This document shows positions 542 through 57,420 of a stretch of DNA of 64,000 bases, in pieces. The number at the start of each line of letters is the position of its first letter. Within the stretch, counting starts at the first letter, position 1. Source of the stretch: Paracoccaceae bacterium (lineage in GTDB: Bacteria > Pseudomonadota > Alphaproteobacteria > Rhodobacterales > Rhodobacteraceae); the NCBI GenBank assembly GCA_024642725.1, contig JAHEAO010000011.1, positions 1 through 64,000 of the forward strand, given 5' to 3'. A program made the translations under genes and the position numbers. A model generated the notes under the pieces. That model was not told where the DNA came from. It saw only the letters and a program-made list of their open reading frames with translations, and did no database searches.

Positions 542-1381
542 ATGAAGCGGCGCTTAATAGGATCAATCGCAACGGTCAGCATTTGCTTGGCGACCGCAGC
601 GGGCGGCGAAGACGCCGTACCGTTCGTTGATTTTACGTTCAAGCGGGTCAAGGTTCCGACCTCGACGACTGCCAAGCGAATTACGGTTCAGATTGACCCG
701 ACCGCAGAGCCCTACCGCTTTGCCATGCCGTCGCGCCCCAACCAGCCGGTCCCGGGGCCAGCCGCTCCTTATACAGGTGATTTCGATTGGTACTGGGCAA
801 CTGTTTCGCCGGCTATCGCGGATGCAGGCCCGGGTCGACTGGATGAAGCCGTGCTCAATCTCTCCAACGGACCCGAAGGGAAGGGCGTTCCAACCCCGCG
901 GCTGCAGGACATGCAGCGGATTGCGGACAAGCATGGCACCGAGATACTGAAGGCCACAATCGGCACCCGTGTCTCGCCCGCGCTTGTTCTGGCTGTCATT
1001 GGCATCGAATCCGGCGGTCGAACAGCCGCAGTCAGCAGTGCGGGCGCAACCGGCTTGATGCAGCTCATGCCCGCAACCGCCGAACGCTTCGGAGTGAGCG
1101 ACACGACGGTTGCCGCCGACAATATACGCGGCGGTGTCGCTTATCTGGACTGGCTGATGAAAGAGTTTCAGGGAGACCCGATCATGGTCCTCGCCAGCTA
1201 CAACGCTGGTGAGAATGCCGTTCGAAAGAATAATGGTGTGCCACCCTTCGCAGAGACCAGAGCCTATGTGCCCAAAGTGCTGGCCGCCTGGACAGTTGCC
1301 CGCGGCTTGTGCCTGACACCACCGCAGCTCGTCTCAGACGGCTGTGTCTTCTCTGTTCGTCAAGCGAGTAACGATGGCTGA
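542..1381 (+). CDS. Secreted lytic transglycosylase (Slt/MltE-like)
   Basis: A 279-residue periplasmic murein lytic transglycosylase that would cleave the MurNAc-GlcNAc bond to form 1,6-anhydro ends. A signal-like N-terminus (MKRRLIGSIATVSICLATAA) is followed by about 120 residues of unassigned sequence and then the catalytic SLT domain. The domain shows 'IGIESGGR' with the catalytic Glu near 156, 'SSAGATGLMQLMPATAERFGV', and 'ASYNAGENAV', all hallmarks of family 1 transglycosylases. An in-frame start 36 bases upstream (506) exists, but 542 places the signal peptide at the terminus. The gene overlaps the next one by 8 bases (ATGGCTGA), so the two are probably cotranscribed. Confidence 0.85.
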   Translation: MKRRLIGSIATVSICLATAAGGEDAVPFVDFTFKRVKVPTSTTAKRITVQIDPTAEPYRFAMPSRPNQPVPGPAAPYTGDFDWYWATVSPAIADAGPGRLDEAVLNLSNGPEGKGVPTPRLQDMQRIADKHGTEILKATIGTRVSPALVLAVIGIESGGRTAAVSSAGATGLMQLMPATAERFGVSDTTVAADNIRGGVAYLDWLMKEFQGDPIMVLASYNAGENAVRKNNGVPPFAETRAYVPKVLAAWTVARGLCLTPPQLVSDGCVFSVRQASNDG

Positions 1382-2810
1382 TGTTAAACCGCTGGTCCTC
1401 GACGTGGACGGCACATTCCTGAAGACGGATATTCTTTTCGAATGTTTTTGGGCCGGACTGGGCAAGGATCCCTTGCGAGTTCTGAAAGCCTGCGTCCTGA
1501 ACCTGTCCCGGCCCGCGGAACTCAAGCGAGAGCTTGCCGAAATCGCGGGTCTGCGAACCGACATCCTTCCGACCGACCCAGAGATCAAGCTGCTGGCCGA
1601 ATCCTGCCTTTCAGCGGGCCGAGAAGTGGTTCTGGCGTCGGCATCCGACGCACAATTGGTCCAGCGGCTTGCCGCGGACCATGGTTTGTCACCCAGAGTC
1701 TTCGCATCCGATGGCCATGTTAACCTTAAAGGGCAGGCCAAGGCAGAGGCGCTCGTTGCGGCATTCGGGGAAAACGGGTTCGATTATGCTGGCAACGAGA
1801 AAATAGATCGCGAGATCTGGAAGCGATCCGAAAATGCCCTGATCGTCGGCAATCATCCGATGATCGAGCAGTCGCTGGCCCGGATGGGCAAGTCGACCAC
1901 GACCTATCCGGGCGGCTGGGCGTTCAGGGACCTGGTTCGCGCATTTCGTCCGCACCAGTGGGTCAAGAACGTCCTGCTTCTTTTGCCAATGCTCGCAGCG
2001 CATGATTTTTCGCTGCCAACGCTCTTGCTGGTCCTGCTGGGCGTGGCCGCCTTCTCGGCAGCGGCTTCTACCATATACATCGTCAACGACCTGCTCGATC
2101 TCGAAGCGGATCGACTGCACCCGACGAAACAGGTGCGCCCGTTCGCCAGTGGCGCCGTTCCGATCAGGGTTGGCATGATTGCAAGTGCGCTCCTCGGCGC
2201 GGTCGCATTGATACTCGGCGGGTTGTTGGGCCCGGTCTTTCTCACCGTGGTGATTGTCTATATGTTGCTGTCGCTTGCTTATTCGCTGTGGCTCAAGCGG
2301 ATGCGCTGGATCGATATTGCGACGCTGGCCATGCTCTATACCCTTCGGGTCGTCGGTGGCGCTGCTGCGGGTCAGGTCTCCGTGACCGGTTTCATGCTGG
2401 TCTTCATTTTCCCGATCTTCATCACCTTGGGCTGTGTCAAACGTCTCACGGAACTCACATTGACATCCAATGATGATCGACTGCCCGGACGAGGCTACGG
2501 GCGCAATGATCGCAGCGATCTTCTGAACGTGGCGGGGTTGGGGACGTTTGGTGCGCTTGCGATCTTCTTCGCCTACACGTTCACCGATCAGGCCCGAACA
2601 CTCTACCCGACGCAATGGGTGCTTTGGCTGGCGCTCGTGCCGATGGCCGCCTGGCTCGTCCGAATGGTGCGGCTGGGCTATTTCGGCAAACAGGATCATG
2701 ACCCGATTGTCTTTGCCATGCGTGACAAGCGCGGTCTTGGGCTGCTGATGCTGACGCTTTCGATCATGTTCTATGCCGCCGGGCTCTGGCAGAAGTGGTT
2801 CGGCTTCTAG
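1374..2810 (+). CDS. HAD phosphatase-UbiA prenyltransferase fusion (decaprenyl-phosphate phosphoribosyltransferase-like)
   Basis: A 478-residue two-domain protein. Residues 1-185 form a HAD-superfamily domain: motif I is LDVDGTF with Asp10/Asp12, and a motif IV-like 'YAGNEKID' lies near 138-144. Residues 190-478 form a polytopic UbiA prenyltransferase with 'RPHQWVKN' near 192 and the Mg-diphosphate motif NDLLDLEAD at 238-246. RPHQWVKN is typical of the branch containing mycobacterial Rv3806c, which joins phosphoribosyl diphosphate to decaprenyl phosphate. The fused HAD domain could then remove the 5-phosphate. The ATG at 1374 overlaps the upstream stop; a GTG at 1344 is possible but less likely. 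DprE1/DprE2-like genes lie convergently just downstream, supporting a polyprenyl-phosphoryl-arabinose role (inference). Confidence 0.8.
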   Translation: MADVKPLVLDVDGTFLKTDILFECFWAGLGKDPLRVLKACVLNLSRPAELKRELAEIAGLRTDILPTDPEIKLLAESCLSAGREVVLASASDAQLVQRLAADHGLSPRVFASDGHVNLKGQAKAEALVAAFGENGFDYAGNEKIDREIWKRSENALIVGNHPMIEQSLARMGKSTTTYPGGWAFRDLVRAFRPHQWVKNVLLLLPMLAAHDFSLPTLLLVLLGVAAFSAAASTIYIVNDLLDLEADRLHPTKQVRPFASGAVPIRVGMIASALLGAVALILGGLLGPVFLTVVIVYMLLSLAYSLWLKRMRWIDIATLAMLYTLRVVGGAAAGQVSVTGFMLVFIFPIFITLGCVKRLTELTLTSNDDRLPGRGYGRNDRSDLLNVAGLGTFGALAIFFAYTFTDQARTLYPTQWVLWLALVPMAAWLVRMVRLGYFGKQDHDPIVFAMRDKRGLGLLMLTLSIMFYAAGLWQKWFGF

Positions 2811-2829
2811 CCCGCGGACAGAATGGCGA

Positions 2830-3567
2830 TCAGATCGACATCTTCTTGAAGATCGGCTCTGGGATCATGCGGATGATCAGCATGATGTAGCGCCAGAAGA
2901 AGGGCGTGTAGACAACGTTTCGCCTTTTCTTGACAGCAGCAAGGATGTCCTCTGAAACCTTTTCAGGCGGGGCAACCAGAAACATGCCCTCGATCCCCCA
3001 AGTCATGGCCGTATCGACAAAACCGGGCTTCACCGTCACCACATGCGCGCCGGATCGCGTCAGCCGATTGCGCAGACCGGACAGGTAGGTGTGGAATCCG
3101 GCCTTGGCTGCGCCGTATGCATAGTTGCCAACCCGGCCCCGATCGCCCGCGACCGACCCGACCCCGACAATGGTGCCGCCGCCTCGCGCTTCCAAGACCG
3201 GAGCCAGCATTTGCAGGAACTGTGCGGGCCCTGTGAAATTGTCCGCCACGATGCCCTGTATCAAGCTCGGGTCTGCGTCGATCTCGGACTGATCCGGCAT
3301 CGATCCGACAAAGACCGCTGCGTTGATCTGCCCTTCCTCGCGTTCCAGCCGAGCGATCAACCCTGCGAAGCCTTCCGGCGCGCGGGCGTCGAAGATCAGG
3401 GCCTCTGCCAGCCGCGCGCCGCGCAAGGCACAGTCTTGCGCCGTTGTAGCAAGGTCGTCGCTATCGCGCCCCGCCAGAAACACGGCGTCGCCCCGCTGTG
3501 AGACGCCTCGCGCAAATGCCCGCGCCATTGAGGATGTGGCCCCCAGTATGATCCAGTTCTCACTCAT
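2830..3567 (-). CDS. dprE2: DprE2-like short-chain dehydrogenase
   Basis: A 245-residue SDR predicted to reduce the 2-keto intermediate made by the DprE1-like partner, completing epimerisation of polyprenyl-phosphoryl-ribose to the arabinose form. The N-terminus 'IILGATSSMARAFA' is the nucleotide-binding loop. The active-site YxxxK is at Tyr151/Lys155 (NYAYGAAKAGF), with the catalytic Ser in 'GVGSVAGDRG' upstream. The C-terminal hydrophobic stretch 'FFWRYIMLIIRMIPEPIFKKM' suggests membrane association, and length matches mycobacterial DprE2. The ATG overlaps the dprE1-like stop by 4 bases (ATGA), indicating translational coupling. Assignment rests on the SDR motifs plus the neighbours. Confidence 0.8.
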   Translation of the reverse strand: MSENWIILGATSSMARAFARGVSQRGDAVFLAGRDSDDLATTAQDCALRGARLAEALIFDARAPEGFAGLIARLEREEGQINAAVFVGSMPDQSEIDADPSLIQGIVADNFTGPAQFLQMLAPVLEARGGGTIVGVGSVAGDRGRVGNYAYGAAKAGFHTYLSGLRNRLTRSGAHVVTVKPGFVDTAMTWGIEGMFLVAPPEKVSEDILAAVKKRRNVVYTPFFWRYIMLIIRMIPEPIFKKMSI

Positions 3568-4877
3568 GAAGGTGCCCTTAGTTTCAGCCGCCGCACGAGG
3601 TCCGTCGTCATCGCCCCGTCCGGATCGGCTTTCCTCACGGCTTTCAGCCACAATGCGTGCTCTGGGTACATCGCCTCGATCCTTTCAGGAGCCATGAGCG
3701 CATCTTTCGCCAGATAGACGCGGCCACCGGCATCTTCCGTCATCCGTTCCAGATTGCCGATCAATACCCGCGCGGCGCTTCGGTTCGGAAAATCCACGGC
3801 GAGCGTGAGGCCGTCCATCGGGAAGGACATATATCCCGCGCGTCCGCCGCCCATGCGTTTCAAGACGGCCAAAGGCGAAGCAAGCCCGGAGTTGGCCACG
3901 AGTTCAAGCATCTGCCGCAACGTCTGGACTTCGGCGACCGGGACGACACATTGGAACTGGTGGAAACCTCGCTTGCCATAAAGCCGGTTCCAGTTGTGGA
4001 TGGCGTCCAGGGGGAAAAAGGGCGCCGAGATTGGTTTCACCGTGGTGCGTCCTCCGACGGGAACGCGTCTGTAGTAGGCTTCATTGAACATGCGCACGAC
4101 AGGCGCGGACAAGGCCCAGTGCGGGGCATTGAAGGGCACCTCTCTCGCCCTGCCTATTGTCGGGGAAACGCCGGATGTGATTTCGCCTTCCTCGAGTATC
4201 CCTCGGCCAAGGTTGCTTCCCTTGGCGGTCGCGTCGATCCAGCCGACGTTATAGTCGGCCCGAGAGTTCTCGAGCGCGGCAAGAAATTCATCCCAGCCGT
4301 CAACGCGGCGTTCGGTCAGGACCATCATGTCGCCCTTGCAGGGCATCAGGCTAATCTTGGCGCTGGCGATGACACCGGTCTGGCCCAGACCCCCGACGGT
4401 CGCCTTGAACAGGTCCGCAGTCCGGTCCGGCGTGACCTTGCGTGTCTTGTCGCCCTGAAAAAGCGTGATCTCCGTCACGTGCTGTCCGAAAGAGCCGACG
4501 ACATGGTGGTTCTTGCCGTGAACATCATTTGCGATGCAGCCGCCAACAGTCGCAAAGCCGGTGCCGGGCATGACCGGGGGAATCCATCCGCGCGCCGCGA
4601 AGATGCGCCCGAGGTCGCCGATCATTGCGCCGGCTTCGACCTCGACAACCCCGGATTCGGCGTCAAATCCGATGATCCGGTCCAGTCTGGTCATGTCGAT
4701 GACCTTGCCGTCGTCATTGAGGGCAGCGTCGCCATAACTCCGCAATTGGCCGATCGCGGGGGCAGGGGATTCTGACAGAACCGCCCTCAGCGACGAAAGT
4801 CTCTCCGGTCTTGCAATCTCGGCGCTCGCATGAACGGCGCGTCCCCAGCCGGTGTATTCAGTTCTTTTCCAGCGCAT
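3564..4877 (-). CDS. dprE1: DprE1-like FAD-dependent polyprenyl-phosphoribose oxidase
   Basis: A 437-residue FAD-binding oxidoreductase of the vanillyl-alcohol oxidase fold, very like mycobacterial DprE1, which oxidises the 2'-OH of decaprenylphosphoryl-ribose. Residues 44-54 (QLRSYGDAALN) and 115-132 (IANDVHGKNHHVVGSFGQ) match the FAD-binding segments, with His120 corresponding to His132 of the M. tuberculosis enzyme. The C-terminus has 'GGRVYLAKDALMAPERIEAMYP', where Lys391 corresponds to catalytic Lys418. The position equivalent to benzothiazinone-target Cys387 is Ala360 (LTLAVDFP). The offset of 27 is the same for both C-terminal residues, supporting the alignment, which I made from memory. 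It overlaps its neighbours on both sides. Confidence 0.85.
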   Translation of the reverse strand: MRWKRTEYTGWGRAVHASAEIARPERLSSLRAVLSESPAPAIGQLRSYGDAALNDDGKVIDMTRLDRIIGFDAESGVVEVEAGAMIGDLGRIFAARGWIPPVMPGTGFATVGGCIANDVHGKNHHVVGSFGQHVTEITLFQGDKTRKVTPDRTADLFKATVGGLGQTGVIASAKISLMPCKGDMMVLTERRVDGWDEFLAALENSRADYNVGWIDATAKGSNLGRGILEEGEITSGVSPTIGRAREVPFNAPHWALSAPVVRMFNEAYYRRVPVGGRTTVKPISAPFFPLDAIHNWNRLYGKRGFHQFQCVVPVAEVQTLRQMLELVANSGLASPLAVLKRMGGGRAGYMSFPMDGLTLAVDFPNRSAARVLIGNLERMTEDAGGRVYLAKDALMAPERIEAMYPEHALWLKAVRKADPDGAMTTDLVRRLKLRAPS

Positions 4878-5874
4878 TTTGCCCCTTCTTCGACTGGCGT
4901 TCTGCGATCGGGAATATCAGCAGGCCGATTATGATTGCGAACCAGAGTGTCGTGACGCGGATGACCGCAGTTGCCGGCAGGCCGATCTCCAACGGGACAC
5001 CTTCCAGAACGAGAAGGGCCACCATGGCAGCCTCTGCGCCGCCGACCCCGCCTGGCGCTCCGGTCAGCCCACCGGCCAAGGTTGCGAAGATGAAGATCGC
5101 AGTCGCCTTTGCAAGCCCGATATCGGCGCCCAACCAGACCAAAAGCAGATGAAAGGCATAGCCTTCGGCGAACCAGCCGATCGCACCGACAATCGCTGCG
5201 AGACTCATCAACGCCGGGTTCGAAAATTGCGCAAGCGAACGCGCCGCCCTGCGAACACGAACAAAAAGCCGTGGCCAGCGCCCGATCAGACCATAGCCTA
5301 CTTCAGCGATCCAGCTCAGCAAGCGCGGCCGCGTCACGACCAGGGCCGCGACGATGGCAAAAACGGTGACCGGAAGGGCGCCTCCAATCCCGGTCGCAGA
5401 AAGGGCAAGCGCAACGGCAAGGATAACGCCCATCGCCGCGAGATCCGACGCACGGTCCGCCAGAACAAGCGGCGCGGTCCGTTCAAAGGCCCAACCGGTT
5501 TCGCGCCGTAGCCAGCGCATCCGCACCAGTTCACCGACGCGTCCCGGCGTCACCGACATCGCGAACCCCCCCAGAAAGTGCCGCAGGTTCTGCACCAGAC
5601 TGGTCCCCAGCCCGAGCTTCCGTGCAAAAATGTGCCAGCGCAGTCCGCGGAAACCGTAGTTGGCCAAACTCAGGCCAAGCAATGCCGCCAGTTGGCCCCA
5701 GCCGAGCTTGGCGATTTGCGCCGTGGTTTCGTGCCAGCCCGTCGCGACGGCCAATCCGATCAGGCCCAACAGCACAAGCGAGAACAGACCGACCAGCAAG
5801 GCGATGTCGCGCCAACGGCGGTTCGTGCCACGGGGTGTGGTTTGTGGCATTGGGTAGTGGCTGCTCATTGTCAT
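4858..5874 (-). CDS. Flippase-like integral membrane protein (LPG synthase TM / UPF0104 family)
   Basis: A 338-residue polytopic membrane protein of the lysylphosphatidylglycerol synthetase transmembrane (COG0392) family. Multiple hydrophobic segments and the family pattern 'NYGFRGLRWHIFARKLG', 'MSVTPGRVGELVRMRWLRR' and 'GGLTGAPGGVGGAEAAMVALL' are visible. Family members are often found with glycolipid or lipid-carrier pathways and are proposed flippases. It is first in an operon with the DprE1/DprE2-like genes and overlaps the next gene by 20 bases, so transfer of the lipid-linked pentose across the membrane is a reasonable inference. A second in-frame ATG lies two codons downstream. The transported substrate is not shown by sequence. 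Confidence 0.7.
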   Translation of the reverse strand: MTMSSHYPMPQTTPRGTNRRWRDIALLVGLFSLVLLGLIGLAVATGWHETTAQIAKLGWGQLAALLGLSLANYGFRGLRWHIFARKLGLGTSLVQNLRHFLGGFAMSVTPGRVGELVRMRWLRRETGWAFERTAPLVLADRASDLAAMGVILAVALALSATGIGGALPVTVFAIVAALVVTRPRLLSWIAEVGYGLIGRWPRLFVRVRRAARSLAQFSNPALMSLAAIVGAIGWFAEGYAFHLLLVWLGADIGLAKATAIFIFATLAGGLTGAPGGVGGAEAAMVALLVLEGVPLEIGLPATAVIRVTTLWFAIIIGLLIFPIAERQSKKGQNALEKN

Positions 5875-50329: not shown

Positions 50330-51052
50330 ATGGAGGCATTGCAGAAATTGACAGAGTCCCGCGAAGCGACGATTCTTGCGACCTATCACAGTATTGAAGT
50401 GCCTGAGGCACCGCATTTCGGTCCCGGCATGATCAAGTCGATGAACGAAGGTCGATATGAGCATCGAGAGATTCAGGCCGGTCTTGCTGTGATCGGCCCC
50501 GGAGCGCGCATTCTTGAGATGGGCGCGGGGTCCGGTGTCGTCGGCGCGGCAATTGCAAAGAACTGCAAGGCTGAACGAGTCGTGTCGATAGAGGCCAACC
50601 CGAATTTGCTGCCCTATATCTCTGAACTGTACTTGCGCAACAACTTGGCAGATGTGATCGCTGTGCGCGACGGCGTCTTCTTGAGCGAACCAAACCCGCC
50701 GGCGGCAGTCGATTTCTTTCTGCGCGGTAACTTTCTGGGTTCGGGGCTGACAGTGATCAAGAACCCTGAGAAAGCGCGCAAGGTAACGGTGCCGACGATT
50801 TCTTATGACGCGCTGCGTGCGGAATTTCCCCACGATGTTATTGTAATGGATATCGAAGGGGCGGAACTGGAATTCCTGCGCCATGCCAACCTGGACGGGG
50901 TGCATACCATCGTTTCTGAAATGCACCGCGACATATATGGCCGCGAAGGCATGAAGGAGTGTCGTGCAAATCTTGCCAGATCCGGGTTCGAGATGGACGG
51001 TAAGAATTCAAAGGCCGGTGTCCACGTCTATTGCCGGAAGGCCGCTAAATGA
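50330..51052 (+). CDS. FkbM-family methyltransferase (first copy)
   Basis: A 240-residue class I SAM methyltransferase of the FkbM group, commonly acting on sugars or polyketides. The SAM site is 'GARILEMGAGSGVVGAAIAKNCKAERVVSIEANPNLLPYI', and 'VIVMDIEGAELEFLRHANLDGVHTIVSEMH' is the FkbM signature. The ribosome site before the ATG is poor. It opens a cluster with glycosyltransferases, so methylation of a glycan is plausible (inference). Confidence 0.85.
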   Translation: MEALQKLTESREATILATYHSIEVPEAPHFGPGMIKSMNEGRYEHREIQAGLAVIGPGARILEMGAGSGVVGAAIAKNCKAERVVSIEANPNLLPYISELYLRNNLADVIAVRDGVFLSEPNPPAAVDFFLRGNFLGSGLTVIKNPEKARKVTVPTISYDALRAEFPHDVIVMDIEGAELEFLRHANLDGVHTIVSEMHRDIYGREGMKECRANLARSGFEMDGKNSKAGVHVYCRKAAK

Positions 51053-51075
51053 TGGTGGGGCGGGTCTGACAGAGC

Positions 51076-53169
51076 ATGGCCAGGGCAGCTAAATGCGAAC
51101 CGAAAGCTCCGCCGAGGATCGCAGCAAATGCCGGCGAAGCCGCAAAGCTGGACGATTTCCTGTTGCCCGGCGAGTTCTGCGACGCCCGGTTCGTCCGGCG
51201 CTCCGACATCCTGTTCGTGACCTTCGACAATCTGGCATCGGTTGGGGAATACGATCCACCGCAGCCTTGGTTGGACGTCCGCACTGCGAAGAACGGTTTT
51301 TCCATTCTTGGGATCATGGCGAAGCGCAAGGACTGGTATCGCAATGCCTCTGGTCCGGAATTGTTGACCGGGCTGCGGGACGCAGGGTTCTTTGAGGGGT
51401 TCCGCAGGGTCGTCTTTACCGGCGCGTCGATGGGAGGATTTGCGGCGATCAGCCTGTCGTCCATCGTGCCCGGGAGCACCGTCATTGCCTTCAGCCCGCA
51501 AAGCACACTTTCGCGCGATATCGCTCCATTTGAAAAACGTTATCGCTATGCGCATAGGAAGTGGGACTGGACGAGTCCGGAATTTCTGGACGCCGCGGAC
51601 GCGGTGCCGCATGCCGAGGAGATCTTCCTCTTTTATGATCCCTTCGTACCCGAGGACCGGGCTCACGCGGACCGGCTGCAGGGGCCATCGGTGAGGCTGA
51701 TCAAATGCGGTCACTTCGGCCACAGGCTGATTCGGCAACTCAAGACTTGCGGGGCGCTTGACGCGGTCTTTCGCGATGTCGGGCGCGGCAGTTTTGATGA
51801 AGCGGCCTTTCGGAAATCTTTGCGGAAACGAAGAGAGGTGCGCCCGTGGAAGAAAGAGCTACTTGGGAACCTGTTAGCGTCGGGACATCAGAAACTGGCA
51901 TTGCGCGCGAGCGAGACATTTCTTGCCGATGAGCCGGGTGCGAAGTTCGCGAGGAAGGTCGTGGACGAAGCCGCGCAAGCGCTCGCAGCCAGTACCAACG
52001 CAGCCACGTCATCTCCGGAACCGGCAGAGCCGACCGATGCATCGGTTGAGAAATCGGATCTGGTTTCCGAAAGCGTTTCCAAGAATGGTCCTTTCAAGTC
52101 TGAAATCCTGGAACTTTCCAACGCGATTGTCGTGCCGGAACGAAATCATGACCGAAGGCTTGCATCCGGCGTGCTCTTGTCCGATCGGAGCTATTGCGAA
52201 TTGTCGCGGGCGTGGATACGGGCGGGAAAGTCCACGCCTGTGCCCTCGTTATCAAGTGACGAGAAGATCGAACGGCTGGAAGGACGGCACATGTTCGCCG
52301 GCCATATGCGCGGTCATTTCGGACATTTCCTGGTCGAGTCCACGGCGCGGCTCTGGGCGCTGGACCGTCTGCATGACCAGATCGACAGCGTATTGTACCT
52401 TCCTTACCGCGGCAGTGTGAAACAGACCCGGCGGGCGCTGTCCGCACACAAGAATTTCTTCGAGTTGCTCGACATCAAGGTGCCGATCCAGACCCATGGA
52501 ACCGCGATCGAGGTGGAGCATCTGATCGTCCCCGAACTCGGGTTCGGCTGGAAGGAGCGTTATGCGGGATCGCAAGGCTACCGGTCTTTCATGCGGGACC
52601 GTTTGGGTGAGAACATTGCACCTGACGGCGGGGAAAACCTCTATATTTCCAGGGCACAACTCGGAGCGCAGCGCGGTGGGGTGCTCGGCGAAACGGTGAT
52701 TGAGGATAACTTGCGTCTCCACGGATACGAGGTCTTCTATCCCGAGCAACATCCGATCGAAGTGCAGATCGCGCGTTACAGGGCTGCAAAGCGGATTGTT
52801 GCATTGGATGGTTCGGCGTTGCATCTCGCAGCATTCGTGATGCCCAAGGGTGGCAAGGTCGGGATCATCTTGCGCCGCTCGAACGCCAATGTCGCCGACT
52901 ACGTGCTCCAGTACCAGTCATTCTGCGGAATCACACCCGATGTGATCGACGTAATCCGGAAGGATTGGGTTTCGGCCGATGTGGCCAGGTCGGACTACCG
53001 CTCTGTTGGAGAACTTGATTTTGGCGATCTCTTTTCGCGGCTGAAATGGTTCGGGTACGTTCCGCCCGAGGCTGACCTGAGGTTACCGGACAAGGACGCC
53101 GTGTCCGAGATGCTAATGGCCTTCTCTGAGCGACGGGGAGAGGAGTTCACCGAACTACCGACGTCATGA
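51076..53169 (+). CDS. Alpha/beta-hydrolase fused to GT61-type glycosyltransferase
   Basis: A 697-residue two-part protein. Residues 40-225 look like an alpha/beta hydrolase: nucleophile elbow 'FTGASMGGFAA' (Ser118), Asp188 and His213 (CGHFGH) as candidate triad. A Ser/Pro/Ala-rich linker (about 290-345) follows. Residues 400-650 match the GT61/DUF563 glycosyltransferase family: 'HMRGHFGHFLVESTARLWALD', 'ENLYISRAQLGAQRGGVLGE' and 'KRIVALDGSALHLAAFVMPKGGKVGII'. The reading frame is continuous with no sign of an error. One enzyme may glycosylate and the other trim or deacylate; this is inference. Translation may couple to the FkbM gene 23 bases upstream. Confidence 0.8.
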   Translation: MARAAKCEPKAPPRIAANAGEAAKLDDFLLPGEFCDARFVRRSDILFVTFDNLASVGEYDPPQPWLDVRTAKNGFSILGIMAKRKDWYRNASGPELLTGLRDAGFFEGFRRVVFTGASMGGFAAISLSSIVPGSTVIAFSPQSTLSRDIAPFEKRYRYAHRKWDWTSPEFLDAADAVPHAEEIFLFYDPFVPEDRAHADRLQGPSVRLIKCGHFGHRLIRQLKTCGALDAVFRDVGRGSFDEAAFRKSLRKRREVRPWKKELLGNLLASGHQKLALRASETFLADEPGAKFARKVVDEAAQALAASTNAATSSPEPAEPTDASVEKSDLVSESVSKNGPFKSEILELSNAIVVPERNHDRRLASGVLLSDRSYCELSRAWIRAGKSTPVPSLSSDEKIERLEGRHMFAGHMRGHFGHFLVESTARLWALDRLHDQIDSVLYLPYRGSVKQTRRALSAHKNFFELLDIKVPIQTHGTAIEVEHLIVPELGFGWKERYAGSQGYRSFMRDRLGENIAPDGGENLYISRAQLGAQRGGVLGETVIEDNLRLHGYEVFYPEQHPIEVQIARYRAAKRIVALDGSALHLAAFVMPKGGKVGIILRRSNANVADYVLQYQSFCGITPDVIDVIRKDWVSADVARSDYRSVGELDFGDLFSRLKWFGYVPPEADLRLPDKDAVSEMLMAFSERRGEEFTELPTS

Positions 53170-53180
53170 GCAGGTTTTTC

Positions 53181-54935
53181 CTATCGATCGAAGACCAGCG
53201 TTCCGGTTTTTTCCATGCCGTCAGCAAGACCGAAGCCGTCCTTATTGAGCGCGGATGCAAGACGTAGCCCTTCTGGATCATCCGCGCCGAGCTGCCGGTC
53301 GGATACGATGATCCGCCGCAGTGAAGCCGAAGGGCATGTTGCCAGCATTGCCGCGTCAATTCGGTGATCACCAAGGAATAGCACAGTCGGCTTGAAATCC
53401 TGAATCAGGGCAGCAAGACCACTGGCCTGATCGGCGCCATCGGTCGCGAAGAACAAGGGGCCGTCGACGATCTTCAATCGTGGAGTGTCGCCCAGGCCGT
53501 TCAACTGCGCGGCTTCCCGTCCGAAATCGGCAAGAGCCCTTCGCTCTTCCTGTGCGAGGACGGTCAGATCTGGGAAGCATTTGCACGAAAGGATGGGCAG
53601 AAAACAGACCCCCGCGCCGACCTCCAGCAGACGATCCGCAGGAGCAAGAAGCTGGGCCCTGTACCGCGCCGCTCTGCGGTCGAATTTTCCCGATGCAACA
53701 TCGGCGAGGGCTGCAGGCGTGAATACCCTCGGGTCGACCGGAAGCAATACCTCGTGATTGGCGACGGTTTCAAAGGCAATATCGGTTGTGCGGTCAATGT
53801 GCCCCGTCAGGTACGGGCTGTTGTCAGCTTGCGAAGGATCAAACCCGGCAACACCAGCATTGCGGCGCTCTGCCTTCGGGCGGCTTTGCGATTTCTTTTC
53901 GACTTCGGACATCATTGCCGCGATCTTGGCAGGATCGCGCGCTTTAGGCGGTTTCGCTTCAATCTTGGTCAGCGGTATGTCGGAAGCGGCCAACAGGCTC
54001 TGTTTCAGTTCGGCATAGGCATCGGTCTTCTTGAAGTCGTCGAGCCGGGCTTCGATCCGGTCGAGCGCTTCGTTGTGCAGTCTATTTAGGACGGGATCGG
54101 TCAGGAGTTGAGTTGCTATCGCCGCGCGTTTGGCAGAGTAGCGAAGGATATTCGTATCCTTGACCTCGTTGCGGTCCTGCAGCGCCCAATAGTCGGCGTT
54201 GTATTTGTCTTTCTTCAGGTTGACGTTGCCGCGGAACTTTCGGACTGCATAGGCATCAATCGACTTGATGGCATAGTGGTTCATCTGCACCCAGTCATAG
54301 CCGATGGTGCGCCGGATGCTGCGCCAGCCGCGGAATTTGAAGTAATCCTCCATCGGCAGGCCAGACCCGTTCAGCCAGTGGATCGTGTCAGGAAAGTCGG
54401 TCTGCAAGTGCTTGTTCTTGATCGACGGGCGATGGATGCCAAGCTTCCAGTAGTCGGCATCGAATTTGAACAGAGTCTTTACCCCCCATCCCTTGTTCCA
54501 GAGCGGCGGGGCGGCATGGCAGTATTGTTCGGTCACCGGATCGCGGGACCAGTCGACAAGGCCGCCGGAGCCGAAGATGCGCCAAGTGACAACGATGCCG
54601 TTCGCGTCGCCGGCAGCAGAGAGCATACTGTCAAGCGATCCGTCGCCGTAGTTGATGCAGAGGAATTCGTCGGCATCGAAAACGAGCACCCAATCGCTGT
54701 CCTGCACGACCTTTTCGGCCTGCGCATGTTTGATGGCCGACGGCTGGGGTTTGATGCCTTCGGGGATGACATTGCGGCGGTGATGGCCAAGCCCTAGTTC
54801 TTCCAGGCGGATCAGCATGTCGTCGGTGCCGTCGGTGCAGTCGTTGGTATAGACCAAGATGTCGGTGAACCCAACCGCAAGGTGATGCGCGAACCATTCG
54901 ATCAGGTATGGCGCTTCATCTTTCATCATCGACAC
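53181..54935 (-). CDS. GT2-type glycosyltransferase with C-terminal Rossmann-like domain
   Basis: A 584-residue protein. Residues 1-300 are a GT2/GT92-like transferase: 'KDEAPYLIEWFAHHLAVGFTDILVYTNDCTDGTDDML' and DxD motif Asp87-Ala-Asp89 (VFDADEFL). A Lys/Pro-rich linker follows, then a region (about 425-580) with 'RLLEVGAGVCFLPILSCKCFPDLTVLAQEE', resembling a SAM-methyltransferase fold. The start is odd: the conserved KDE motif lies five residues in, the first start is GTG 54935, and an ATG 17 bases upstream (54952) is out of frame. A short N-terminal loss or sequence error is possible. Confidence 0.75.
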   Translation of the reverse strand: MSMMKDEAPYLIEWFAHHLAVGFTDILVYTNDCTDGTDDMLIRLEELGLGHHRRNVIPEGIKPQPSAIKHAQAEKVVQDSDWVLVFDADEFLCINYGDGSLDSMLSAAGDANGIVVTWRIFGSGGLVDWSRDPVTEQYCHAAPPLWNKGWGVKTLFKFDADYWKLGIHRPSIKNKHLQTDFPDTIHWLNGSGLPMEDYFKFRGWRSIRRTIGYDWVQMNHYAIKSIDAYAVRKFRGNVNLKKDKYNADYWALQDRNEVKDTNILRYSAKRAAIATQLLTDPVLNRLHNEALDRIEARLDDFKKTDAYAELKQSLLAASDIPLTKIEAKPPKARDPAKIAAMMSEVEKKSQSRPKAERRNAGVAGFDPSQADNSPYLTGHIDRTTDIAFETVANHEVLLPVDPRVFTPAALADVASGKFDRRAARYRAQLLAPADRLLEVGAGVCFLPILSCKCFPDLTVLAQEERRALADFGREAAQLNGLGDTPRLKIVDGPLFFATDGADQASGLAALIQDFKPTVLFLGDHRIDAAMLATCPSASLRRIIVSDRQLGADDPEGLRLASALNKDGFGLADGMEKTGTLVFDR

Positions 54936-55012
54936 GGCGGTGGTGCGGCCATGTGGGGATATGTGTCTTTGCAGGTCTATGGCTGCAGTCCCTTGAGCGC
55001 CGTCAGAAGCGC

Positions 55013-55822
55013 TTATTCGAGTGCGGATTCAGCATCGATGCCCTGCTTTTCGCACATCCTCGCGGCATAGCTGCCGGGCATCGGGGCGTTCTTGCGCCAC
55101 CATGGTTTGGTGCCATTGGTATAGAGGTGAACCGATAGCGTTTCATCGGTGAAATGGCCTTCAACATGCCCGTGGGGGTCATAGAAAATGTCGTTCAGTT
55201 GGAAGGGCACGGGATATAGGACTTCTCGGGGCCTGGCCTGATCAAATATTCCTGTGACTTTCGCAAAATGTGTAAAGGCTTGCGGTCCAAAGGCCGTGCG
55301 CTCTGCCGCATAGATGCGGGCTGCATGCGACAGGTTCTCGGGTTGCCGATCATACTTCTTGCGCTGGTTCTTGTTCCACCATGCCGGATAGTCCGGAAGG
55401 TTCTCGTAATAGTCCAGAAGCTGGTCCATGACCTCGCACTGGCTCGGCAGTGCGACAACACCGCAATTCAGGGCGCCGTTCAGCCCGTGGACGCCAAATA
55501 TGTAGTCGTCGTCCGGAAAGGCACGGTGGCAGTAGGCGTCGCAATCGATCCAGACGGCACCGGTAGCGCGGATCATCTTGTAGCGGAAGACGTTGGACAA
55601 GAACGAGGGGCTGGTGTCGCCGACAAGTTTCATGTCCATGTCCATGATCTCGGCGGCGGGCCGGATTTCGACGCCATCTGGGGCATTGGTCAGCTCGTCT
55701 GTGCAGTAAAGTGTAGTCGGGTGCCCGGCAGCGACATGCGATCTGAGGCAAAGCTGGTTGAGATAATGCAATCTCTCACCAATCCATAGCGATGCCACCG
55801 GGCGTCTCTTGAGTTCTGCCAT
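55013..55822 (-). CDS. DXD-type glycosyltransferase (Gly_transf_sug family)
   Basis: A 269-residue glycosyltransferase with a sugar-binding DXD motif: 'LSNVFRYKMIRATGAVWIDCDAYCHRAF' (Asp94-Cys-Asp96). The early 'ASLWIGERLHYLNQLCLRSHVAAGHPTTLYC' and the later 'LNGALNCGVVALPSQCEVMDQLL' fit the family that includes OCH1-like and capsular transferases. I prefer ATG 55822, since the family starts at 'VASLWIG'; the longer frame reaches 55951. It precedes the GT2 gene by 77 bases on the same strand. Confidence 0.82.
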   Translation of the reverse strand: MAELKRRPVASLWIGERLHYLNQLCLRSHVAAGHPTTLYCTDELTNAPDGVEIRPAAEIMDMDMKLVGDTSPSFLSNVFRYKMIRATGAVWIDCDAYCHRAFPDDDYIFGVHGLNGALNCGVVALPSQCEVMDQLLDYYENLPDYPAWWNKNQRKKYDRQPENLSHAARIYAAERTAFGPQAFTHFAKVTGIFDQARPREVLYPVPFQLNDIFYDPHGHVEGHFTDETLSVHLYTNGTKPWWRKNAPMPGSYAARMCEKQGIDAESALE

Positions 55823-56019
55823 CTTGCGCCTGTTCCTATAGCCTCGGCTGCCAAGAACCGATCCCGGCGCCAAGTGTTGTTGACAGTGGGATACCCCAAA
55901 TCGCAGGGCGGCGGAACCAATTTTTGAGAGTCCGCGCATCGACAGGGCCACCCCGAACCTCTAGAATTTCTGGGAGCCAAGCAAACAGAATAAACGCAGG
56001 TTGGCGTGAGGACGGGGCT

Positions 56020-56721
56020 TTGGGCATAAGTATCAATATCGCGACGCACATGGCGCGCTGCGCACCGTTGGTGGAAGGCAAGACCGATGGCATCATGCTG
56101 GGCCGCCAGAAGATGCATTTTCGCCCCAACTGGGGCAAACGCCTAGTGCGCAACATGGCCGCCATGGGCATGGACGTGCAAGAAGAAGCGTTGTTCCAAG
56201 AAGATGGTTTCTGCGAGTCGTTCCTTGCCGCGATCGGATGGCCCGCGCTCAAAAGCCTCGATTTCTCGGATATCGAGGGGGCTGAGTTCATTCACGATCT
56301 TTCAGATCCGATCGGACCCGATTTGAGGCAGAGATTTGATCTGATCTACGATGGCGGCACGACTGAGCATGTTTTCGATATCGCGGCTGCATTCCGCAAT
56401 GTGCACGGTATGCTCAAAGATGGTGGCGTGTTCATGTCCTGTGTTGGCAGCGATGGGTGGTTCGGGCATGGATTCTACCAAGTGGGCCCCGATGTGCCGT
56501 GGCGCTACTGGGGTGCCACGCTGGGTTACGAGGTTCTGGGGGTCTGGACTCTCCCGCGCGTCAAGGACGTGGCGCCAAAGGAAATCGCCGACCCAACCTA
56601 TACTCGTCGTGGAGCCGACCAGCGTTTCGATCAGCCGCAATTTCTGTTCTACGCGGTGCGCAAACAGGGCGAGAAGGACAGTTATCCACCAACGATTCAG
56701 TCGCATTATGTCGACTATTAG
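56020..56721 (+). CDS. Class I SAM-methyltransferase-like protein
   Basis: About 233 residues. 'SLDFSDIEGAEFIHDLSDPIGPDLRQRFDLIYDGGTTEHVFDIAAAFRNVHGMLKDGGVFMS' is the late half of a Rossmann methyltransferase, though the usual GxGxG is not clear. 'GWFGHGFYQVGPD' and 'YEVLGVWTLPRVKDV' resemble methyltransferases in polysaccharide clusters. The start is uncertain: TTG 56020 follows a GAGGACGGGG sequence; ATG 56050 and an upstream in-frame start at 55924 are alternatives. Divergent from the DXD transferase. Confidence 0.65.
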   Translation: MGISINIATHMARCAPLVEGKTDGIMLGRQKMHFRPNWGKRLVRNMAAMGMDVQEEALFQEDGFCESFLAAIGWPALKSLDFSDIEGAEFIHDLSDPIGPDLRQRFDLIYDGGTTEHVFDIAAAFRNVHGMLKDGGVFMSCVGSDGWFGHGFYQVGPDVPWRYWGATLGYEVLGVWTLPRVKDVAPKEIADPTYTRRGADQRFDQPQFLFYAVRKQGEKDSYPPTIQSHYVDY

Positions 56722-56745
56722 GGTTTTGCAGTGGCGGGGGGCGGA

Positions 56746-57420
56746 ATGAAACCAACGGCGGAAGAACAGCTGCAAAAGCTGAAAAGGCGCCAGGATCGAA
56801 ACATGCGGGCGGCCCATGCCAAGGGACTCTTGCAAGGAATTGTCTCTATGCTCAAGCCTGGTGACATTGTTCTCGATTGCGGAGCAAACCTTGGAACAGT
56901 CACCCGGCCTCTTGCCGAGACGGGCGCGGTTGTTCATGCATTTGAGCCCGATCCATATGCATTTGGTAAGCTTCAGGAAGCCTTCGCCGATCACTCAAAC
57001 GTGGTGATGCATAACGCTGCCGTCGGTGTCGAGGCCGGTCACATCCGGCTGATGCGGGCCGCAAATTTTGATGAAAACCCAAAGGGGGCATCGGTCAAGA
57101 GCACGGTTGTTCCGGGTGGGCGCAAGATCAATGAGGACCTGTCCAATAGCATTGAAGTCGCACTGATCGACCTTCCGGCGATGATCACCGATTTGGTTGG
57201 GCGCCACGGTGAGATAGCATTTCTCAAGATGGACATCGAGGGGGCAGAGCTTGAGTTGCTTGAGCGGATGCTGGCGGAAGACTTGTTCAATGGCGTCCGC
57301 CTGACGGTTGCCGAAACCCATGAGAACAAGTTTCGCGATCTGCGGCCCCGTTTCGAGGCGCTACGGTCCGCGGTTTCCGACCGTTTTCCGATCACCAAGG
57401 TGAATCTGGACTGGATTTGA
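56746..57420 (+). CDS. FkbM-family methyltransferase (second copy)
   Basis: A 224-residue FkbM methyltransferase. 'DIVLDCGANLGTVTRPLAETGAVVHAFEPDPYAFGKLQEAF' binds SAM, and 'IAFLKMDIEGAELELLERMLAEDLFNGVRLTVAETHENKF' is the family signature. It differs in sequence from the copy at 50.3 kb, so the two are not a recent duplication. ATG 56746 has GGGGGGCGG just upstream. It follows the methyltransferase-like gene by 24 bases. Confidence 0.88.
   Translation: MKPTAEEQLQKLKRRQDRNMRAAHAKGLLQGIVSMLKPGDIVLDCGANLGTVTRPLAETGAVVHAFEPDPYAFGKLQEAFADHSNVVMHNAAVGVEAGHIRLMRAANFDENPKGASVKSTVVPGGRKINEDLSNSIEVALIDLPAMITDLVGRHGEIAFLKMDIEGAELELLERMLAEDLFNGVRLTVAETHENKFRDLRPRFEALRSAVSDRFPITKVNLDWI

Follow-up and report, generated by a model that had tools for sequence, protein, structure and literature searches.

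A predicted stand-alone donor module for polyprenyl-phosphoryl-D-arabinofuranose, with an MprF-type candidate flippase, in Rhodobacteraceae

The polyprenyl-phosphoryl-arabinose pathway is best known from tuberculosis bacteria. The mycobacterial pathway, which generates decaprenyl-phosphoryl-arabinose and comprises Rv3806c, Rv3807c, DprE1, DprE2, and Rv3789, shares homologous phosphoribosyltransferase, oxidase and reductase components with the locus considered here, yet relies on an Rv3807c-type phosphatase where the present locus encodes a fused HAD domain, and on a different flippase. The mycobacterial arabinan system further differs in employing an Emb transferase, a family (PF04602) absent from the genome addressed here, and in having Cys387 in DprE1, where Ala is found here.

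Pentofuranose donor systems have also been published for Gram-negative bacteria, namely, those serving the Citrobacter O-antigen (PMC11127046), the Pseudomonas pilin arabinan (PMC12369383), and the Azorhizobium Nod factor (PMC2443382). As such, the view in an earlier note on this DNA that use of the pathway by a Gram-negative organism is remarkable was too strong. The three-component systems of Citrobacter youngae O1/O2 (Kelly et al., 2024; PMC11127046), also Gram-negative, share with the present locus a HAD(PRP)-UbiA(PPPRS) fusion that serves as donor synthase and has matching catalytic residues, and DprE1/E2 homologs are reported for the arabinofuranose versions of such systems, where they accompany the fusion-type enzyme when the glycan contains arabinofuranose (PMC11127046). 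In C. youngae, however, a MATE-family flippase and a GT-C transferase (GT136) are encoded inside the O-antigen cluster, whereas here the candidate flippase is of the MprF-domain type and no transferase is linked. Because no GT-C is encoded in the cluster, the locus resembles a three-component system up to the donor and is not classed as a complete one. The D-arabinofuranose genes that act with TfpW on the pilin of P. paraeruginosa (PMC12369383, PMC11841053) offer the same kind of donor pathway in a Gram-negative organism, as do, by similarity according to their authors, the noeCHOP genes of Azorhizobium (PMC2443382); these two systems differ from the present one in that their acceptors, pilin and Nod factor, respectively, are known. 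Published work on Gram-negative bacteria thus already covers the donor pathway, its HAD fusion and arabinosylation by way of DprE1/E2. The possible addition made by the locus is a donor module conserved on Rhodobacteraceae chromosomes, in which the flippase is of the MprF type and to which no transferase is linked; the supplement of PMC11127046 may already list this locus type. A literature search returned no relevant roseobacter paper, and the statement that such a system is not well described in roseobacters stands that far.

The window, i.e., the complete 64-kb stretch of DNA that was analyzed, contains the following four genes, whose positions had been given exactly in the earlier note and whose homology scores exclude chance matches:

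1374-2810, plus strand: HAD-UbiA fusion, with a HAD domain at about residues 1-181 and a predicted UbiA-type polyprenyl-phosphate phosphoribosyltransferase domain at about residues 183-472
2830-3570, minus strand: DprE2-like short-chain reductase (SDR), with YxxxK at Y152/K156
3564-4877, minus strand: DprE1-like FAD oxidase (FAD_binding_4), with H120 and K391
4858-5874, minus strand: flippase-like membrane protein with an MprF flippase domain (PF03706, LPG_synthase_TM/flippase-like)

These genes form not one operon but two convergent runs, with the fusion on the plus strand facing flippase-dprE1-dprE2 on the minus strand across a gap of 19 bp on the dprE2 side. On the plus strand, the fusion shares 8 bp with the lytic transglycosylase gene before it, while on the minus strand the flippase gene and dprE1 overlap by 20 bp and dprE1 and dprE2 by 7 bp. 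In most of the DprE1-containing Rhodobacteraceae loci fetched, the order is topA, two CoA-transferase genes, flippase, dprE1, and dprE2, after which the fusion and lytic transglycosylase genes run toward them.

Taken together, homology, predicted folds, catalytic residues, gene linkage and co-occurrence make it very probable that this locus is a stand-alone donor module for D-arabinofuranose in its polyprenyl-phosphoryl form, for which we infer the reactions, the carrier lipid and the flipping step. The UbiA half of the fusion would transfer ribose-5-phosphate from PRPP to polyprenyl phosphate, probably undecaprenyl phosphate, and the HAD half would then strip the 5'-phosphate. The DprE1-like protein would oxidize C2 and the DprE2-like protein would reduce it with inverted configuration, yielding polyprenyl-phosphoryl-D-arabinofuranose, which the MprF-domain protein may flip to the periplasmic face. 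There, a transferase encoded elsewhere would attach the arabinofuranose to its acceptor, whether glycan, lipid or protein. For the pathway assigned to these genes at the outset, the route from PRPP through polyprenyl-phosphate-linked ribose to the arabinose form is well backed by sequence, fold, residues, co-occurrence and gene displacement, with the flippase standing as a candidate. Counted against the donor-module reading were the DprE1-like and DprE2-like proteins scoring under curated cut-offs, the transferase searches that named no enzyme, and those few genomes in which DprE1 and the fusion do not occur together.

Both the UbiA and HAD domains were found in the 1374-2810 product (Pfam/NCBIfam), which matches NF006088 (PRK08238) at 490 bits, as compared to a curated cut-off of 351, over residues 4-469 of 478 (NCBIfam). 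In a PDB sequence search, the only solved structure matched was the M. tuberculosis DPPR synthase (8j8j; 5e-29). In the predicted fold (pLDDT 92), residues 183-472 superimpose on 8j8j with a Z of 28.8 and an rmsd of 2.6 over 283 residues, with other UbiA enzymes behind at Z 21.6, while residues 2-181 fit HAD phosphatases (Z 14-16). The expected motifs are present, namely, the HAD nucleophile D10, N238, D239, D242, and D246 (N-D-x2-D-x3-D), and R357 and E360 (R-x2-E), all of which are invariant or nearly so in alignments of 44-54 relatives; D12 is likewise conserved. In Citrobacter ORF15, mutation of the counterpart residues lowers or abolishes activity (PMC11127046). Judged by sequence and model, the protein belongs to the HAD-UbiA polyprenyl-phosphate phosphoribosyltransferase type represented by Citrobacter ORF15 and is predicted to use PRPP and polyprenyl phosphate.

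The oxidase matched DprE1 structures at about 1e-69 in a PDB sequence search. Although by far its best model, NF053785 (DprE1) scored 374 bits, under the curated cut-off of 500, and the protein is therefore named DprE1-like, not a curated equivalog. H120 and K391 match the active-site His and Lys of M. tuberculosis DprE1 (H132 and K418). Ala360 occupies the position of M. tuberculosis Cys387, the target of covalent nitro-benzothiazinones, and Ala is found there in 76 of 79 relatives. As such, insensitivity to these compounds is predicted, and DprE1 relatives of this kind could serve as natural controls for DprE1 inhibitors. The reductase found its best PDB match in DprE2 (21gq_C; 4e-24), with the next SDR some nine orders of magnitude behind (9e-15). 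Its top model was the general SDR PRK07102 (266 bits; cut-off 267), followed by the DprE2 model NF053786 (155 bits), and since the latter score lies under the curated cut-off of 250, the protein is named DprE2-like. Y152 and K156 are invariant in 72 relatives, and a DprE2-like gene adjoins DprE1 in nearly all of the loci fetched.

The distribution of these genes was considered in 120 genomes of the window's own family. DprE1 was detected in 42 (33 at ≥52% identity, i.e., at least that value, eight at about 40%, and one as a fragment) and the fusion in 48. Both occur in 40, such that 40 of the 42 DprE1 genomes contain the fusion (Fisher p about 2e-21); no fusion was found in the other two, G089 and G125, one of which is 93% complete. 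The two genes are opposite-strand neighbors in 24 of the 42 genomes, lie on the same strand in nine, and are not adjacent in nine, seven of which carry the fusion elsewhere. Eight of the nine same-strand cases (G109, G135, G129, G120, G053, G094, G115, and G027) contain the DprE1 of about 40% identity, probably an independently acquired island type. In the DprE1 tree (like the fusion tree, a quick tree without bootstrap), a branch (support 99) separates the Rhodobacteraceae group from a Rhodospirillales-rich set next to it. In Celeribacter (two copies), in Pacificibacter (G011), and in G015 and G017, the fusion lies at another place and belongs to a separate clade of the fusion tree, while the DprE1 of these genomes stays inside the Rhodobacteraceae clade; loci of Celeribacter, Pacificibacter and another genome (L096-L099, L108-L111) show the fusion gone from the dprE side and a separate-clade copy elsewhere. 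The relocated fusions of G013 and G014 are of the native type and merely moved. As the fusion has been lost beside dprE in several genomes with a xenolog present elsewhere, fusion and DprE1 appear functionally tied, and the separate-clade copies can be read as displacement by a xenolog under selection for a complete pathway. An 11-TM protein encoded near relocated fusion genes proved to be a citrate-type transporter.

The membrane protein encoded at 4858-5874 matches PF03706 at 140 bits (Pfam cut-off 33.4), and its predicted fold (pLDDT 87) matches the flippase domain of MprF at Z 20-23, ahead of the next fold at 5.7. A PF03706 protein is also encoded beside dprE1 or the fusion in Beta- and Gammaproteobacteria loci. 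As members of this family are predicted to flip lipid-linked sugars (PMC5898192), the protein is a candidate flippase for the sugar lipid. That it instead moves another lipid, with the donor being flipped by a different transporter, is rather unlikely: PF03706 does have other known cargo, namely, lysyl-phosphatidylglycerol in MprF, and a MOP/MATE-type protein replaces it in other clusters (L042, L054), as in Citrobacter, yet the gene here overlaps dprE1, the two genes are found together across Rhodobacteraceae and again in Beta- and Gammaproteobacteria, and both the predicted lipid flippase fold and the predicted function of the family favor the sugar lipid. A MatE gene was seen near the fusion in locus L109.

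An ORF and transmembrane survey detected no GT-C in the 64-kb window, in agreement with the earlier observation that the arabinosyltransferase is not encoded there, and no GT-C recurs beside the locus in the Rhodobacteraceae loci fetched. The search of the genome for GT-C arabinosyltransferases proposed earlier yielded two PMT_2 GT-C genes and no Emb, GT87 or AftB-like match, with neither gene being confidently an arabinosyltransferase. The Emb family (PF04602) was absent from all 14 genomes searched, including the organism's own, with the C. glutamicum control being positive, while GT87 (PF09594) was present in nine of the 14 and absent from the own genome, and so was set aside as a common transferase. 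The first PMT_2 gene (L106) belongs to a GT2/LAB_N/GT-C cassette common to several relatives, the GT-C of which probably has its own donor; it was rejected given these donor-type partners and the absence of PMT_2 from the DprE1-bearing genomes G004 and G011. The second (L133; G000:C106:33656-35389) is an orphan encoding 578 aa, with cytochrome oxidase genes and one FixG-like gene nearby. There is some small chance that this orphan is the arabinosyltransferase of this strain, with the conserved donor being served by a transferase that varies from strain to strain, given that, unlike the cassette gene, it has no neighboring donor synthase. Against this, no close relative was found in 13 other DprE1-bearing or 119 family genomes (best identity 28%), and PMT_2 shows no association with DprE1 (present in 20 of 42 DprE1 genomes; p 0.18). 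As the other 22 lack a PMT_2 match, PMT_2 is not the general answer for the transferase.

Given the absence of Emb, GT87 and AftB-like matches, the cassette-bound or orphan state of the PMT_2 genes, and the lack of PMT_2 in half of the DprE1 genomes, an arabinofuranose-containing surface polymer or glycolipid, as earlier envisaged, is no more than a possible end product. Returning to the donor-module reading, we would tentatively suggest, while leaning somewhat against it, that about one-quarter to one-third of the sampled Rhodobacteraceae genera hold, mostly at one ancestral locus, a donor module for arabinofuranose that includes its own flippase of the MprF type and supplies either a transferase family yet to be recognized or an acceptor not so far described from this group. 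The donor module itself puts a mycobacterial drug-target pathway into a bacterial family that is widespread and mostly aquatic, and raises the question of which glycan, lipid or protein bears D-arabinofuranose in Rhodobacteraceae, and via which enzyme. That the same module makes another sugar, be it a different pentofuranose from the C2 ketone or lipid-linked ribose as the main product, is quite improbable. In its favor, the same entry pathway in Citrobacter leads to either ribofuranose or xylofuranose according to which epimerase acts (PMC11127046), and DprE1 is missing from eight of the 48 fusion-bearing family genomes. Against it, the DprE1-like and DprE2-like proteins are both retained with their active-site residues and are closest to the mycobacterial pair, and DprE1 is accompanied by the fusion in all but two of the 42 genomes.

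Several further glycan-related sequences were encountered. Beside DprE1 clusters of Beta- and Gammaproteobacteria, large membrane proteins without Pfam matches fall into two families (L061:18485-20134, L072:12509-14023, and L078:5933-7390; L058:11990-13666, L070:15377-17305, and L079:11928-13595), both GT-C-like and possibly arabinosyltransferases. The first was found in five of the 14 genomes, not including the own genome, and the second in none, with the models, divergent and built from three rows each, being such that an empty answer shows little. In the family genome G090 (C39:80104-82400), a second UbiA-type gene adjoins a PMT_2 GT-C gene, representing a linked donor synthase and transferase. 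Finally, at a distance of about 45 kb from the four genes of the arabinose module, the window contains a small glycan-type cluster (50330-57420) whose products are two methyltransferases of the FkbM type, a 697-aa GT61 protein, and a GT2 protein.
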